This document shows positions 18,032 through 37,453 of a stretch of 64,000 bases of DNA, one piece after another (position 1 is the first letter of the stretch; each line of letters begins with the position of its first letter). The stretch is taken from assembly GCA_947459425.1 (NCBI GenBank), contig CANHDJ010000005.1, forward strand, positions 1 through 64,000. Reading direction: 5' to 3'. The translations under genes and the position numbers were made by a program. Under the pieces are notes generated by a model that was not told the DNA's origin, searched no databases, and worked only from the letters and a program-made list of their open reading frames with translations. The DNA is from Ignavibacteria bacterium (GTDB taxonomy: Bacteria; Bacteroidota; Ignavibacteria; Kapaibacteriales; UBA4661).

Positions 18032-18055
18032 AAACATACAAAAAAACAGGTTGGT

Positions 18056-29659: not shown

Positions 29660-32506
29660 TTATTGAAAACGATAACTAAACCCAAGTGAGAATGTTCGTC
29701 CGCGAATATTCGATGCTACGCGGGTACCGATTTGCTCCCAGACGAGTGCTTGATTGAGCAAATCACGAATAAGGAACTTTACTTCGGCATTGCCTAAGGG
29801 CTGCACAACAGAAATATCCACCACATCGCGCGGAAGCTCGTACACGTGCGGCGATACACCTTGTGTTTCGTACAAACCAAGCTGGGCAACCTGCACAATG
29901 CGCTGACCAAAACGGTTGTAGGCAACATTAAGCGATGTGCCGACTTCGGGATGCGTGTAATACAAGCCCGCATTGATGCTGTATGGCGACTGTCCCCACA
30001 TTTGGCGGGTTTCTGTGAGTGAACCTTGCGAGACCGTCAGAACGGAGTTTATCAGGGCAACATTCGCATTGAAACCGACGGTATTGAGTGCATCGGCAAT
30101 AAAGCCGAGTGATTTGCGGAATTCGATTTCTACGCCGTAATTAGAAGCAACGCCCTGCGCATTGGTAAACGTCCGCGCAATAACGCTTCCGGGCTGGATG
30201 GTTTCTTCAATCGCATTCTCGAAGGTTTTGTAGAAACCGCTCACAGCAAATACTTCACCCGGATTCATAAACCATTCATAACGAACATCAAAATTGTTAA
30301 TCAGCGAGCGCACAAGATTCGGATTACCAGCCATGCGGCTTTGCGATTGGAAATCAAAGAAGGCAAATGGCGCAAACTCTCGAAGCGAAGGGCGAGCAAG
30401 CGTCCGCGTTGCCGAAAGGCGGATATTCATGTCATTGGTGACTTTGTACACCAAATGAAGCGACGGTAAAATATCCGTAAATGCAGGCGCACGGTTCACG
30501 GGTTGTCCTTGGTCAGAAAAGCTAAAAAGTCGTTGCACGTTGTTTTCAACACGCAAACCACCGATAACACGCAAATTCATCGTGCCGATTTGAAACGGTG
30601 CATCCCCCATGACATATCCTGCGTGCAAGGTTTCATCTGCGCTGTACGCATCACTCAATTTAGAATCTTCCGAGATTCCCAAGCCATCTCCGCGAAAATT
30701 CTCGCTAGAAAGCAAGGATGCGGGAGATTGTGCCAAATTGATGTCGCTGGGAATATCGGTGATAATAGCGCGGGTAAGAATCATTGTCAATGAGCGGGCA
30801 TTGAAGGTGCGATTGCGGCGCTCAAAAAGGTACCCGACTTTGACTTTGATATTATTTTCCAGTGGAAGTGTCGCATTGAACATCCCGGTTAATAAATCAT
30901 CGGTCAAGCCGGAATAGAATCGCCCTGCCACCGTACCATCGCCTTGCTGCGTTGCGGGAATATCCGCACGGAACTCGTCGTTTGTTCCAACAGTGCGCGA
31001 GTAGCGCAGACGGCGGAAATCCGGCTCGTCGCGGCGCGAGGTTGAATAGCCAATTTTCCAATCAATCAAAGAGTTACTAAGCGCACTCAAGGTGTGTTCG
31101 CCGCCTAGCTGACCAGAGTACAGGGTTTTCTCGACAAATTGTGCGCTATAAAAACGTCTGTCACGATTTTGCCCCACATCTAAGCCCTCCAAGGAGACAA
31201 CCTCGTTGTCAGCAGAGCGATTGTAAATATTTTTGAATGTGATAGACGATGATGAACCAATTTTGTACGCAATATTGAACAAGCCGCCCCAGCTTACGGA
31301 CTGCGTTGCTTGTTGTCCGGCGGTTTCAAACTGCACCCGACCATTGGAAAGAATACCGTCGCGCTCAATGGTGTTAATTTGGTAGCCATTGCCGTAGCTC
31401 AGATTCGCCACGATGCCGAGTTCGTCGTCACCAATTTGAATCGGGGTTGCAAAGGACAACCCCACGCCTGTATTCACAGGTGCTGCAATACGGTTCGATT
31501 TCCAGACGTTGCTATTAAGCGACTTGCTGGCATCAATCCATTCCCCAGCGCCATCAAGATCATTCGGGTCTCCGGCACGGCTCAGAAGTTTTGTCATGGC
31601 TGTACGGTTCGCAGGAATGGATGTGGGCAAACGGCGCGTACCATCGTCAATACCCAACCAATCCAAGCGCCCGCCCTCGTAGGTGTCAAACTGCCCACTG
31701 CGCAAGGAAACATTGTCGTTGTATGCGGTGGAAACAGAGGCTTTGAAAAAGGTTTTTTCGGGAAAGTCAATGGTGTTTAATTGAACCAAACCACCAGCAA
31801 AGTTGCCCGGAAGGTCGGGGGTAAAGGATTTGGCAACGTTGGCATTTTGTAAAAATTCGGAGGGAAACATATCGAAAGCAAACGCTTTTTTGTCCGGTTC
31901 GGTGGACGAAAGCGATGCGCCATTGAGCGTGGTATTGCTATATCGTTCACTCACGCCACGCACATAGACAAACTTTCCTTCGACCAAGGTAACGCCCGGT
32001 ACACGCCGCAAAGCCTGACCTGCGTCACTATCGGGTAATTTCTTGATTTCCGCCTCACTAATTCCGTCGCTCACCTGAGCCGCATTTTTGCGTTGGGAAA
32101 GAATGGCGGCTGCGTTATCGTTAATGCGTGAGGATTGGACAACAACTTCTTCTGTTTTCTTAACAGCAGATTCCATAACGACGTTCAGCGAAACGCTTTG
32201 TCCGTCGCTGACCACAACACCTTCAAAGGTTCTGGGCTTAAAGCCGATGTAGTTGAAGCGCAGGGAGTACGTGCCAGCAGGAACGCCTTTGATGCTGTAT
32301 GCACCTTTCACATCAGCAATTGCGCCCTTTTTGCTATTCAACACTTGAACAGTAGCACCGCGCAATACCTCACCATTTTCGCCATCGCGGACGGTGCCGG
32401 AGATTGTACCACCTGCTGAAGGTGCTTGAGCAAAAACAGACGGGGAATCGGCAATAACACTCGCCAAAGAAAGGATAACAACGCAGAAACGCAGTAACAA
32501 GCGCAT
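29660..32506 (-). CDS. TonB-dependent receptor with N-terminal carboxypeptidase-like regulatory domain
   Basis: GGTISGTVRDGENGEVLRGATVQVLNSKKGAIADVKGAYSIKGVPAGTYSLRF, plug region RVPGVTLVEGKFVYVRGVSERYSNTTLNGA, terminal Phe-containing strand FSLGFSYRFQ. Confidence 0.93.
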   Translation of the reverse strand: MRLLLRFCVVILSLASVIADSPSVFAQAPSAGGTISGTVRDGENGEVLRGATVQVLNSKKGAIADVKGAYSIKGVPAGTYSLRFNYIGFKPRTFEGVVVSDGQSVSLNVVMESAVKKTEEVVVQSSRINDNAAAILSQRKNAAQVSDGISEAEIKKLPDSDAGQALRRVPGVTLVEGKFVYVRGVSERYSNTTLNGASLSSTEPDKKAFAFDMFPSEFLQNANVAKSFTPDLPGNFAGGLVQLNTIDFPEKTFFKASVSTAYNDNVSLRSGQFDTYEGGRLDWLGIDDGTRRLPTSIPANRTAMTKLLSRAGDPNDLDGAGEWIDASKSLNSNVWKSNRIAAPVNTGVGLSFATPIQIGDDELGIVANLSYGNGYQINTIERDGILSNGRVQFETAGQQATQSVSWGGLFNIAYKIGSSSSITFKNIYNRSADNEVVSLEGLDVGQNRDRRFYSAQFVEKTLYSGQLGGEHTLSALSNSLIDWKIGYSTSRRDEPDFRRLRYSRTVGTNDEFRADIPATQQGDGTVAGRFYSGLTDDLLTGMFNATLPLENNIKVKVGYLFERRNRTFNARSLTMILTRAIITDIPSDINLAQSPASLLSSENFRGDGLGISEDSKLSDAYSADETLHAGYVMGDAPFQIGTMNLRVIGGLRVENNVQRLFSFSDQGQPVNRAPAFTDILPSLHLVYKVTNDMNIRLSATRTLARPSLREFAPFAFFDFQSQSRMAGNPNLVRSLINNFDVRYEWFMNPGEVFAVSGFYKTFENAIEETIQPGSVIARTFTNAQGVASNYGVEIEFRKSLGFIADALNTVGFNANVALINSVLTVSQGSLTETRQMWGQSPYSINAGLYYTHPEVGTSLNVAYNRFGQRIVQVAQLGLYETQGVSPHVYELPRDVVDISVVQPLGNAEVKFLIRDLLNQALVWEQIGTRVASNIRGRTFSLGFSYRFQ

Positions 32507-32578
32507 ACAACAAGGGTAAAAGTGATGAAAGTGTTGGAAGTATCGTGTCTTTGAGACGTGCAAAATTAGCTCTGCTAC

Positions 32579-32621
32579 ATTACGTGAATGTTACAAGCCA
32601 TGTTAAATTCTGGTAACATTG
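32579..32621 (-). promoter_or_regulatory. shared upstream element, copy A (Pho-box-like direct repeats)
   Basis: Minus strand CAATGTTACCAGAATTTAACATGGCTTGTAACATTCACGTAAT aligns to copy B along its length with a 1 nt gap. Confidence 0.6.
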
Positions 32622-32783
32622 CCGCAAAACAATACCCCGACGCGATAGTAATTATTTGCGATGCTGCCTATTTTGAAGCCGATTTCTTTAGAGTTTGCGC
32701 ATCTGCTCGTTTTTTGGCATTTTGGGAGTTTTGTATCTCTACGCTAACCAAAAAATTTCTTATTCCTCATTCATCACAACAAT

Positions 32784-33770
32784 ATGATTGCATTTATCAC
32801 TGGCGCAACGGGCTTCGTGGGAAGTTTTGTTGCCGAAGAATGTTTGCGGCGCGGGTACACCGTGCGCTGCCTTACCCGTGCTACAAGCAGTTTGCAATGG
32901 CTCGAAGGCTTACCAGTGGAGCGGGCTGTCGGGTCATTGACCGATAGCGCTTCGCTCGAAAAAGCGGTTGCCGGAGCAGATATTATCATTCACATTGCCG
33001 GTTTGACGGCTGCTCGGAACCGCGAGGAATTTTTTCAAGGAAATCATGTTGGCACAAAGAATCTTTTGGATGCCGCCCTGAAAGCCGCACCAAATCTAAA
33101 GCGTTTTCTGCATTTAAGCAGCTTGACCGTTTGTGGTCCGGCACAGTCGCTGGAGCGCCCGACTTTGGAATCCGACCCCTGCAAGCCGCTTACCGCCTAC
33201 GGTGAAAGCAAAAAAGAAGCAGAAGATGAAGTGAATGCCCTCAAAGACAAACTCCCTATCACAATAGTCCGCGCACCCGCTATTTACGGGCAGCGCGACA
33301 CCGCAATTTTTGATTATTTCAAAGCCGTCAATAGCGGAGTTTCGGCACTCATTGGTTTTGACGATAAACGCCTCAGCCTTGTTCACGTCGAAGACCTTGC
33401 TCGTGGGATTGTTGACGCGGCGGAATCGCCCGCAACCATCGGTGAAACCTACTTTATCGCCGATGAGCCGTTTTATTCATGGGTAGAAATCACCGATGTT
33501 ACCAAACGAGCGTTAGGGAAAAAAGCAATTCTCACCATTCGACTCCCCCACGCAGCCGTGATGGGCGTTGCAGGTATTTCCGAGTTTTTTGGAAAATTTT
33601 CTGCAAAGCCACCAGTCTTTAACTACGAAAAAGGTGTGGATTTTGTTCAAAAATATTGGATAGGTTCGACGGAAAAAGCACGGCGCGACTTTGGCTACGA
33701 ATCACGCTTGGGGCTGGAACACGGTATTCCGAAAACAATTCATTGGTATAAAGAACACAAATGGTTCTAA
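32784..33770 (+). CDS. NAD-dependent epimerase/dehydratase (extended SDR)
   Basis: MIAFITGATGFVGSFVAEECLRRGYTVRCLTR; YGESKKEAE; TIVRAPAIYGQRD. Confidence 0.92.
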   Translation: MIAFITGATGFVGSFVAEECLRRGYTVRCLTRATSSLQWLEGLPVERAVGSLTDSASLEKAVAGADIIIHIAGLTAARNREEFFQGNHVGTKNLLDAALKAAPNLKRFLHLSSLTVCGPAQSLERPTLESDPCKPLTAYGESKKEAEDEVNALKDKLPITIVRAPAIYGQRDTAIFDYFKAVNSGVSALIGFDDKRLSLVHVEDLARGIVDAAESPATIGETYFIADEPFYSWVEITDVTKRALGKKAILTIRLPHAAVMGVAGISEFFGKFSAKPPVFNYEKGVDFVQKYWIGSTEKARRDFGYESRLGLEHGIPKTIHWYKEHKWF

Positions 33771-33888
33771 GAGGCGACTCAAAAAATGAACAAAGTCGTA
33801 TATTGCGGTCGATGAATATGAGAATGTGGCTACGTCGCATCGGTTCGATTTAACTTCCTTTTACCGTTTCGCTTGCAAAAGGCTTGTT

Positions 33889-34299
33889 ATGCTGCTATAC
33901 AAGAAAACCCCAACACTTTCGATATATTATTCCTACGAACTCTACGCGGCACTTGCTCTCTGGCAAGGCAATATGACGGGCGCAGATATTCAAGAGTCGG
34001 CAGATTCTATCGAAGATGTTCTGCGCGAGTACAAAACGGTGAAATTGGTAACATATTCCGTTCCCGTCCGCATTATTGACCGCAAAGCCGCACAGTATCT
34101 TGCTGTGGAGTGGCTTCCGCGTGTAGCGGGAACGGTACTGCAATATTGGGCAGATGTTGTGCCGCGTCTTTCCCTCACATCACCTTCTGACGTGCCGGAA
34201 TCCCTAGACAACGTTGTCGAAAGCCACGATATTCCCGGCATCACCATTGCTCAGTTTGGAAATATTGAAGTTGCTAAAAAGTGGATTCATCAGAAGTAA
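33889..34299 (+). CDS. hypothetical protein, possible STAS/SpoIIAA-like fold
   Basis: ORF with ATG at 33889 followed by a terminator; fold assignment weak. Confidence 0.6.
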   Translation: MLLYKKTPTLSIYYSYELYAALALWQGNMTGADIQESADSIEDVLREYKTVKLVTYSVPVRIIDRKAAQYLAVEWLPRVAGTVLQYWADVVPRLSLTSPSDVPESLDNVVESHDIPGITIAQFGNIEVAKKWIHQK

Positions 34300-34383
34300 A
34301 TCTTGCACGTAAGATTTTGAATACAAAAGGATTACACCAAACCTTTAACAGACTCAGGATAAAATCAGCAACGCCCTGCTGCG

Positions 34384-34421
34384 AAAAACGCCCGTATTTT
34401 CAGAAAATACGGGCGTTTTTT
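34384..34421. terminator. bidirectional terminator
   Basis: AAAAACGCCCGTATTTT-CAG-AAAATACGGGCGTTTTTTT. Confidence 0.92.
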
Positions 34422-34464
34422 TACGCTTTACTCCATCATTTTGGCGCGTCCAATCGGCACATTA

Positions 34465-34923
34465 TCAGAAAAAGAATTCAATACCAAGCCTTGCGCTGGG
34501 GAACGACACGGATAATGACGGCAAGACCTCTCCTTGGAATCCAAATTCAATGGGGTCTATTTGCGCCAGCACAGCAGCATTTGGGCTAACACTGTAACGC
34601 AGTCCGAGCGAAGCGCCCAGAAAGCCTTGCTCACGGTAGCCCGTCGTGGCGGGGCGAAAATTATAGGAAAGCGCCGCGAATGGTGCAATACCGCTTGCTG
34701 CCAAAGGCAGAAGTACACGCCCAAATGCTCCAAACCCTCGCGTCCCGGCGGACAAACCCGCATGAATATTGGGCGAAACGGTATAGACAGCATACAGGGA
34801 TTGACTTGAACCAATAGCGATACCAGCACCCAAGCGCTGTTCGGTCTGTTGTGCCTTTGCGGTGCAGCAAAGAGCGCTCACCAGCAATGCTAGAAGGCAC
34901 GCTCTGAACATCGAAGTTTTCAT
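34465..34923 (-). CDS. small outer membrane beta-barrel protein
   Basis: Signal peptide MKTSMFRACLLALLVSALCCTAKAQ, alternating barrel strands, terminal FF. Confidence 0.7.
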   Translation of the reverse strand: MKTSMFRACLLALLVSALCCTAKAQQTEQRLGAGIAIGSSQSLYAVYTVSPNIHAGLSAGTRGFGAFGRVLLPLAASGIAPFAALSYNFRPATTGYREQGFLGASLGLRYSVSPNAAVLAQIDPIEFGFQGEVLPSLSVSFPSARLGIEFFF

Positions 34924-34951
34924 AGAAATTGGGTAAGATGTGGAAAGAAAT

Positions 34952-34973
34952 ATCCCTTGAATTCAAGGGGTCA
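34952..34973 (+). repeat. left copy of TTGAATTCA-centred palindromic repeat
   Basis: ATCCCTTGAATTCAAGGGGTCAG; core CCCTTGAATTCAAGGG is a perfect 16 bp palindrome. Confidence 0.7.
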
Positions 34974-35037
34974 GCAATACTTAAAATTTGCTAATCAGGA
35001 ATAATTTCTTATTTTCCTCACAATCAATGTAGCACCT

Positions 35038-35049
35038 CTTGAATTCAAG
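35038..35049. repeat. partial internal copy of the same palindrome
   Basis: CTTGAATTCAAG, perfect 12 bp palindrome. Confidence 0.6.
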
Positions 35050-35089
35050 CCTCTCCGAGAATATATTAGAACCTGAGGATTAAATATTT

Positions 35090-35488
35090 ATGGCAAAAGA
35101 GTCACGATTTACGATAGATGATACCTTTTTCCAGTCTATCAAGATCTTTCTAAACCCGGTTATCCCAAGCAACGATATTATTCAATATGCACTCAGCCTA
35201 TTTCAATGGGCTGTGGGTGAAATACGCCAGGGCAACAAAATTGGCTCGCTCGACAAAGATGATGTTTTACATGAAATTACTATGCCCTTTCAGAGTAATA
35301 TTGTCGTTCAGTCCTATGAAGAAAGAAGAGATCAAACAAATGATAATGAAAGAGAATCGGCTTCCAACGAAAATTTCGATCAACTTGTTGATAAAATGCT
35401 TGACATTCTAGATAGGGATAATAAACAATTTTCCCAACATCTCAACTTGTATGAGGAACTTCGAGCAATAAGAAAAAAAAAAACATGA
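35090..35488 (+). CDS. hypothetical protein, possibly an RHH-like small regulator
   Basis: DIIQYALSLFQWAVGEIRQGNKIGSLDKDDVLHEITMP resembles RHH-associated small proteins; ATGA overlap with the next gene. Confidence 0.65.
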   Translation: MAKESRFTIDDTFFQSIKIFLNPVIPSNDIIQYALSLFQWAVGEIRQGNKIGSLDKDDVLHEITMPFQSNIVVQSYEERRDQTNDNERESASNENFDQLVDKMLDILDRDNKQFSQHLNLYEELRAIRKKKT

Positions 35489-35679
35489 CCGAACTCGGTT
35501 TGGCTATTGTAACGAAACTTACTTCTGACATTAGGAAAAAAATTCCAGAGATTCTTGAACAGGAATACATTACTCTAGAGGTTCGTAAGCAACTATTTTC
35601 ATTTTTTAGATATTGCGATATTCCCGCCGAAGAAGAAAAAAGATATAGAGAACAAATCAACAAAATGCCCATCAAATAA
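35485..35679 (+). CDS. hypothetical small protein, 64 aa, translationally coupled to the upstream gene
   Basis: ATGA overlap; follows an A11 tract. Confidence 0.6.
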   Translation: MTELGLAIVTKLTSDIRKKIPEILEQEYITLEVRKQLFSFFRYCDIPAEEEKRYREQINKMPIK

Positions 35680-35691
35680 CTATCGCTTGTT

Positions 35692-36153
35692 ATGGCGAAA
35701 AGCATATCTTTAGAGGAACGAATTGCTAAGGTATTTACGAGTACATTCCAGCCTCATGTAAAAAAATCACTTTCCGAACATGGTGTAGGGCTTGCCAAAT
35801 GGGTACTCGTTATTATCTCTGTCTGCATACTTATTTTTACATCCATTGTTGCATTTCAAGAATTTGAACATAGAAATACCATAGACAATATCGCATCTAA
35901 AGCACCAGTGTCCCCAACAAATCTTATACTTCAGCAACAACTACAAGGTAAGTCGGACGCTTTGCGGGACGCAACTACTCGTGACAGTCTAAAAATCCGC
36001 CAGACAATAGACCTCCTCACAGCACTAGAAACACAGCGTAAATCAAGCCGAGATTTTTGGTTCACTGTCATTCAACTTACTCTACTCAACCTACTCCTGC
36101 CTACCTTAACAGCTATATTAGGCTATGTCTTTGGACGCGATAAAGGTGACTAA
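35692..36153 (+). CDS. hypothetical membrane protein with TM segments near both ends and a central helical region
   Basis: WVLVIISVCILIFTSIVAF and VIQLTLLNLLLPTLTAILGYVFG hydrophobic segments; 12 nt after the previous gene. Confidence 0.7.
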   Translation: MAKSISLEERIAKVFTSTFQPHVKKSLSEHGVGLAKWVLVIISVCILIFTSIVAFQEFEHRNTIDNIASKAPVSPTNLILQQQLQGKSDALRDATTRDSLKIRQTIDLLTALETQRKSSRDFWFTVIQLTLLNLLLPTLTAILGYVFGRDKGD

Positions 36154-36210
36154 AAAAAGAGTGAGAGTAACGGAATTTTTTCGATTTCGATACTCATACA
36201 ATGAAAAAAT

Positions 36211-36232
36211 AATCCTTGAATTCACGGGCTTC
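36211..36232 (+). repeat. right copy of TTGAATTCA-centred repeat, same orientation as the left copy
   Basis: AATCCTTGAATTCACGGGCTTCAG versus TATCCCTTGAATTCAAGGGGTCAG. Confidence 0.65.
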
Positions 36233-36271: not shown

Positions 36272-37090
36272 CTATTTGCCAGCCGCAAAACGCTCCGCAT
36301 GGAGAAGAATAGTAGTTTCAATATCGGATGAAGGTTGTAGAATCCCTGTTCCTATTTCTCCTTGGGTAAACTGGTATAACGACGAAAATGAGCCGGGAGG
36401 TTCGCTGCGAATAGCGTCATTAAATTTCGTGTCATTTGCCGCCAGCAAAAGAGAAGCCAGCAACCACAAGCCATCACCCGTTCCGATAAGAACTCTGTCA
36501 TAGTTGTACTGAGTCTTTTCCCGATGTTTTGCGATAACCTTGGCTGCAAGTTGGCGTTTTTCTAGTGTGTTGAGCCTCTTCAAAAAAGACTCTCGCGTGA
36601 GTGCTAATTCTATTGAAGCCAGTTGGGCTTGAATTTCGTAGGCATCTTCGGTAGCAGCCGATTGTATCACGGGTGAACACGCCGCCTCAAGTCTATCATA
36701 TCGCTCCATCATGGTTTGGTAGGCATCGGGGCGTTGCTCCAATGCTTGCCACGTATTCATGGTAAAAAATTCTTGTCTGCCTCGTGCTAAGGATTTCCGC
36801 AACTTCAAACTTGCTTGCGTATGAGGATTTGCTAAACAACTTTCCAAAAGCCCTCGTGTGGACATTGGGGGAATAAGGCTATCGGGGATATTCGTCGGAA
36901 TCGCCGTTATTCCGTGTGGTCGTAGCGGCGCATAGATGTAGCGGTCGGCAGTGTTGTAGGTGTATTTTGCCTTACACTCTTCGAGTGAAGGCATCTGTAT
37001 TTGTTGTATGGTACCGCACGAGGCAGAGACTAACGCCACAAGACTAACACACACACGGCATACTGTTCTGGAATACAGAAATTGTACCAT
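36272..37090 (-). CDS. hypothetical lipoprotein
   Basis: MVQFLYSRTVCRVCVSLVALVSASCGTIQQ lipobox; start moved to 37090. Confidence 0.75.
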   Translation of the reverse strand: MVQFLYSRTVCRVCVSLVALVSASCGTIQQIQMPSLEECKAKYTYNTADRYIYAPLRPHGITAIPTNIPDSLIPPMSTRGLLESCLANPHTQASLKLRKSLARGRQEFFTMNTWQALEQRPDAYQTMMERYDRLEAACSPVIQSAATEDAYEIQAQLASIELALTRESFLKRLNTLEKRQLAAKVIAKHREKTQYNYDRVLIGTGDGLWLLASLLLAANDTKFNDAIRSEPPGSFSSLYQFTQGEIGTGILQPSSDIETTILLHAERFAAGK

Positions 37091-37453
37091 GATTATCTCC
37101 TTTCGGTAAACGTTGTTGTTCGGTTGTACATTTTCACTCAACTATTGAGATTGTCCATTGTAGCCCATTCTAGTATTTGTCTGAATAACACACAAATCTA
37201 CATCGTTTTGTCTATGCCAAACAATGGGAAAGGTATGAAAGTGTAATTTTGCGGAACGAATATGTCATTTGGGGCGTATTTTTTTCTCAATGCCAATCTA
37301 TATCATCAATACAGCATATGTGCAATCATATTCGCTACGCTGCCGAAAGGCTTGCGTCACCTTGCAAGACACGCTACAAACACAGTTACCTCTTGGATCT
37401 GCATTTCGGGATATGAGATTATCCACGATGTAATCTCGTCAATCACATGGTGA

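Follow-up and report, generated by a model that had tools for sequence, protein, structure and literature searches.

Simple excision of bacterial insertion sequences (IS) is rare. The Escherichia coli element IS30 is reported to lack precise excision; it makes deletions and inversions, and it inserts next to its own ends (PMC9333248). For IS3-family elements, IEE-promoted excision yields both simple losses and deletions of flanking DNA (PMC9397093). We analysed a 64,000-nucleotide stretch of an Ignavibacteria bacterium genome (the window), in which three small genes lie among copies of a 12-bp palindrome, CTTGAATTCAAG. A previous inspection of this DNA, the sequence-only reading, had proposed that the palindromes may mark the ends of one mobile cassette. 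We lean towards a different explanation, in which an IS30-family element was lost by deletion from one palindromic tip to the other and left the solo palindromes as scars, and those without matching flanks are rearrangement joints. If true, the lineage would have dozens of exact 12-bp scars with their target duplications intact, from which past insertions and losses of the IS could be counted and which would be markers for synteny breaks. This would also explain how short palindromes come to bracket accessory genes without being cassette ends.

Distribution and flanks of the palindrome

The 3.4-Mb draft genome that contains the window has 12 exact copies of CTTGAATTCAAG, versus 0.22 expected and none for a reversed-pattern control. 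The palindromes picked out by the sequence-only reading are therefore real and far above chance. Six congeners carry 18-89 copies, a seventh has one, and one other family member has 20; the 21 genomes examined from other families of the order have 0-1. The 12-mer is a lineage-specific interspersed repeat, and the majority of its copies are solo, isolated and mostly intergenic. The 12-bp core is the sole repeat: among the first 67 copies, those without an adjacent IS end have random flanks, with complementarity at chance level. The direct repeat of 22-24 bp described earlier shrinks to this core, the rest being chance similarity, as the sequences around other copies are neither related nor complementary. 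Likewise, the 'same orientation' ascribed to the copies has no meaning for a palindrome. A literature search found no paper on this palindrome, and the matches returned were unrelated by title.

An exact 3-bp direct repeat surrounds 36 of 107 solo copies, where 2.06 are expected when flanks are swapped between copies (binomial P ~2e-34); palindromes of the genomes G004, G006 and G007 are hardly represented in this sample. None of the 107 has flanking matches of 4 bp or more. One site in the window's own genome (L026, contig C37) has an empty counterpart: it reads TAGGGA-CTTGAATTCAAG-GGATG, versus GAGGGATG in the collinear sequence of G002, the closest relative. Because G002 has only the un-inserted GGA there, the comparison of GGA-CTTGAATTCAAG-GGA with a lone GGA means that this site gained the 12-mer plus another GGA. 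Alignments of G001 and G006, which are more distant, are too poor at this site to inform on it. The palindrome, then, is a unit of 12 bp that was inserted and duplicated 3 bp of its target. We also sought a second element family adjoining solo palindromes and found none. In G001, two palindromes lie within ~25 bp of each other (L215:740-790, contig C173), each with its own 3-bp duplication (CTG for one, TCT for the other), which suggests that one was inserted beside a scar already present.

An IS30-family element with palindromic tips

Roughly one-sixth of the sampled copies (21/128) run on into TTRYAAGTGCGAA. These extended copies are the ends of an 1184-bp element or of internally deleted versions of it. 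An intact copy in the congener G005 has the palindrome at its two tips and the terminal inverted repeats CTTGAATTCAAGTTRYAAGTGCGAA at both ends (L068:11931-13114, contig C174). Its transposase (L068:11984-13099) belongs to the IS30 family NF033563 (E = 5e-91; 305 bits versus a cut-off of 80). IS200/605-like hairpin ends and integron attC-like sites had been considered for the TTGTAAG extension and were dropped once the IS30-family transposase was found. The complete copy has a ~96-bp tandem duplication in the N-terminal helix-turn-helix region of the transposase gene (L068:12094-12289), and a second, partial IS30-family copy lies 8 kb away.

In G001, an IS copy has AGG directly outside both palindromes. 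It was reconstructed from two contig ends (C258 for the 5' flank, C138 for the 3' flank), joined through synteny with G006, where the two flanks are adjacent. At that place G006 has a solo copy with slight decay, AGG-CTTGAATTCGAG-AGG. For two IS copies both ends could be read on a single contig, and neither has a 3-bp duplication (L099, ACG/AAA; L085, GTT/TCT). At none of the sites seen did one strain carry the IS while another had a clean scar that kept the same duplication and was otherwise unaltered. An IS30-family transposase at E<1e-20 was absent from the window's own genome and from G004, G006 and G009, all of which carry palindromes.

We propose that an IS30-family element that has resided in this bacterial family would have CTTGAATTCAAG as its last 12 bp at either end and would insert with a 3-bp target duplication. 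Since both tips carry the same palindrome, they would form a pair of 12-bp direct repeats. A deletion from one to the other would then remove the IS and leave a solo palindrome between the duplicated 3-mers. IS copies could also recombine with one another or make adjacent deletions, leaving palindromes without matching 3-mers at the joints. This reading is supported by the duplications around the solo copies, the empty site at L026, the palindromic tips of the IS and the AGG-flanked copy in G001, as well as by the lack of another flanking element family. A further point in its favour is that a palindrome variant in the window, CTTGAATTCACG, is identical to the 3' tip of IS30-family copies in G007.

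Synteny also fits the scar reading. In a raw count, of the seven solo sites of the own genome that could be compared, five (L022, L023, L029, L031 and the leftmost copy in the window) are only 6-34 bp away from a point where synteny with relatives breaks. As to the other sites, L026, with its duplication, is collinear, and L034/L122 is an old copy common to this genome and G002. Unmatched palindromes beside breaks are consistent with rearrangement joints. Elsewhere in the window, at 18040, homology to contig C657 of G002 stops where an IS30-family MITE of G002 starts, and non-collinear sequence follows in the window, a further break adjoining an IS30-type end. On contig C9 of the own genome, a clean 947-bp stretch missing in G002 (L033:2322-3268) lies ~110 bp from a palindrome variant, CTTGAATTCAAT.

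Several observations weaken the scar reading: no paired IS and scar site was seen, L099 and L085 have no 3-bp duplication, MITE outer halves vary, some genomes have palindromes and no transposase, and E. coli IS30 is reported to lack precise excision (PMC9333248). Some of these would be expected if another, undetected element or mechanism inserted the palindromes with their 3-bp duplications, and the IS30-family element merely targets them. We regard this as unlikely, yet as a contender to be taken seriously. The IS would enter the centre of the palindrome (CTTGA-AT-TCAAG) with a 2-bp duplication, its own tip TCAAGTTG recreating the palindrome on both sides. In line with this, the hot spots at which E. 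coli IS30 inserts are nearly palindromic, and its duplications there are 2 bp long (PMC9333248). The outer palindrome half of the MITE copies is variable (CTTGAA, CGTGAA, CGTGGA, GGTGAA, AGAGGA) and the inner part, TTCAAGTTGTAAGTGCGAA, does not change, a pattern easier to reconcile with a target than with a terminus. Palindrome-rich genomes without transposase and IS copies without a 3-bp duplication point the same way. However, two different copies in G007 share the same unusual outer half (CGTGAA at IS 3' tips, GGTGAA in MITEs), the 3-bp duplication of the G001 copy lies outside the palindromes, and no other element family adjoins the solo copies.

It seems rather improbable that the 12-bp palindrome moves as a minimal unit with a 3-bp duplication, without excision of a longer element. 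Such units might be abortive or junction-only products of the IS30-family transposase, seeding sites that recruit IS copies and gene-bearing rearrangements.

The three-gene segment and its palindromes

Three palindromes lie around the genes of interest in the window. Copy 1 (CTTGAATTCAAG, 34956-34967) is 6 bp from the left synteny break and is flanked by TCC and GGG, with no 3-bp duplication. Copy 2 (CTTGAATTCAAG, 35038-35049) is located 40 bp upstream of the first gene within an exact 3-bp duplication (CCT/CCT); judged from these flanks, it is a simple 12-bp insertion scar. Copy 3 is the variant CTTGAATTCACG (36215-36226), flanked by ATC and GGC, again with no duplication. According to the scar reading, copies 1 and 3 would be joints of an IS-mediated rearrangement that placed the AT-rich three-gene segment here.

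A blastn comparison of the window with contig C528 of G002 showed homology over 30768-34950 (96%) and again from 37454 onward (92-93%), where xseA is the right neighbour in both genomes. The segment 34951-37453 is absent from the collinear G002 locus, which has 282 unrelated bases in its place. The sequence-only reading had confined its cassette to 34952-36232; G002 lacks the whole segment and the right break, at 37453, is away from copy 3. A lipoprotein-like gene (271 aa, 36275-37087, - strand) lies in this segment outside the proposed cassette and has no match in the 12 relatives searched, so the segment specific to this genome exceeds the cassette and reaches beyond copy 3. What holds of the earlier proposal is a lineage-specific, AT-rich segment, missing at the syntenic place in G002, with a palindrome 6 bp from its left break. 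Because the segment is low in GC and 98 relatives lack genes 1 and 3, we favour its gain here over its loss in G002. The segment was probably joined through IS-related breakpoints.

The three + strand ORFs are present as claimed between 35090 and 36153, and all are orphans. Gene 1 (132 aa) occupies 35090-35488, gene 2 (64 aa) occupies 35485-35679 and overlaps the stop of gene 1 with its start (ATGA), and gene 3 (153 aa) occupies 35692-36153. Their region is indeed more AT-rich than its flanks, with 34-37% GC versus a mean of 49%, and is the lowest-GC 1250-bp stretch of the window. None of the three proteins matched a family above cut-off in Pfam, NCBIfam, PHROGs or PADLOC, and none has a homologue in IMG/VR. 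Genes 1 and 3 have no homologue among the 99 relatives searched, plasmids, phages and the PDB, and one pattern-based scan of GTDB genomes found none for gene 1. The ribbon-helix-helix (RHH)-like N-terminus of gene 1 was recognised by eye only, and a single-sequence structure model (mean pLDDT 44), too weak to place a fold, did not confirm it. The corresponding model of gene 3 is all-helical with moderate confidence (pLDDT 65), likewise too weak to place a fold. Two hydrophobic stretches of gene 3 (~34-56 and 122-145) were called by reading the protein sequence. The defence or toxin-antitoxin role that had been suggested for the trio is not supported: these searches found no recognisable toxin, antitoxin or defence domain and no homologue. 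As far as its sequence tells, the trio is a lineage-specific, AT-rich segment with no detected homologue. Our least bad guess, held with low confidence, is that it may be an accessory module built around a small membrane protein.

The trio could be one of several mobile gene cassettes, or collapsed composite transposons, that end in palindromes, though we consider this quite improbable. Close palindrome pairs are commoner than under random spacing. In several genomes the members of such a pair enclose accessory genes (an MNT-HEPN pair, a HEPN gene, a methyltransferase, a formyltransferase with a PIG-L-like pair), and the trio has a synteny break at its left end. Conversely, the outer 3-mers are unmatched both in the trio (TCC/GGC), which therefore did not arrive as a single unit bounded by copies 1 and 3, and in all four other pairs compared (L022, L065, L066 and L139), whereas single copies often have matching 3-mers. 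The members of another pair, L067, each have their own duplication, indicating independent insertions. The palindromes are mostly isolated, and on the right the synteny break with G002 does not coincide with copy 3. The sequence-only reading had itself held that many unrelated intergenic occurrences of the repeat would speak against cassette ends, and the repeat has turned up at dozens of unrelated, mostly intergenic sites. Pair clustering would instead be explained by insertion next to existing ends, as in IS30 (PMC9333248), or by a preference for AT-rich, dispensable DNA.

The gene content around some palindromes can be described individually. In G009, a pair of MNT-like nucleotidyltransferase and HepT-like genes, a known toxin-antitoxin layout, lies exactly between two solo palindromes (L065:2384-3287, contig C58). 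On contig C4 of the own genome (L022:2451-3588), a solo palindrome on one side and an internally deleted IS30-family copy on the other enclose a methyltransferase gene; this insert is missing in G001 and G006, and in G002 its place is taken by another, shorter one. In G002, a 33% GC stretch encoding two SHOCT-domain proteins adjoins an IS30-family MITE and a solo palindrome (L069:523-2640, contig C205).

Finally, the palindrome is very unlikely to be the operator of a dimeric regulator with the copies as its regulon: it is palindromic, mostly intergenic and often 20-70 bp upstream of a start codon, but it has exact 3-bp target duplications, ranges from 1 to 89 copies between congeners, and occurs between convergent genes and within an ORF.

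Comparison with described systems

The suggestion that the repeats are REP-like elements was nearer the mark than the cassette, in that REPs are also palindromic, dispersed, mostly intergenic and IS-associated; the data instead point to scars of an IS30-family element. REPs are 21-65 nt long (PMC1525189), whereas here conservation stops at 12 bp, there is no loop, and 3-bp duplications are found. Excision footprints of Tc1/mariner elements and Stowaway MITEs are similar in keeping the target duplication with a few terminal element bases. In contrast to those, the palindrome described here is fixed at 12 bp and bacterial, and would probably result from deletion between tip repeats, not from staggered cutting. 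IEE-promoted IS excision in E. coli shares simple IS loss and deletions of IS-flanking DNA (PMC9397093), but is described for IS3-family elements. E. coli IS30 resembles our element in its NF033563 transposase family and its terminal inverted repeats, as well as in its ties to palindromic sequence and its insertion next to existing ends. A target duplication of 2-3 bp may be a further likeness, given the AGG outside one reconstructed copy and its lack in two others. Unlike in IS30, the tip itself is a perfect 12-bp palindrome here, and dozens of solo tips with 3-bp duplications remain in these genomes.
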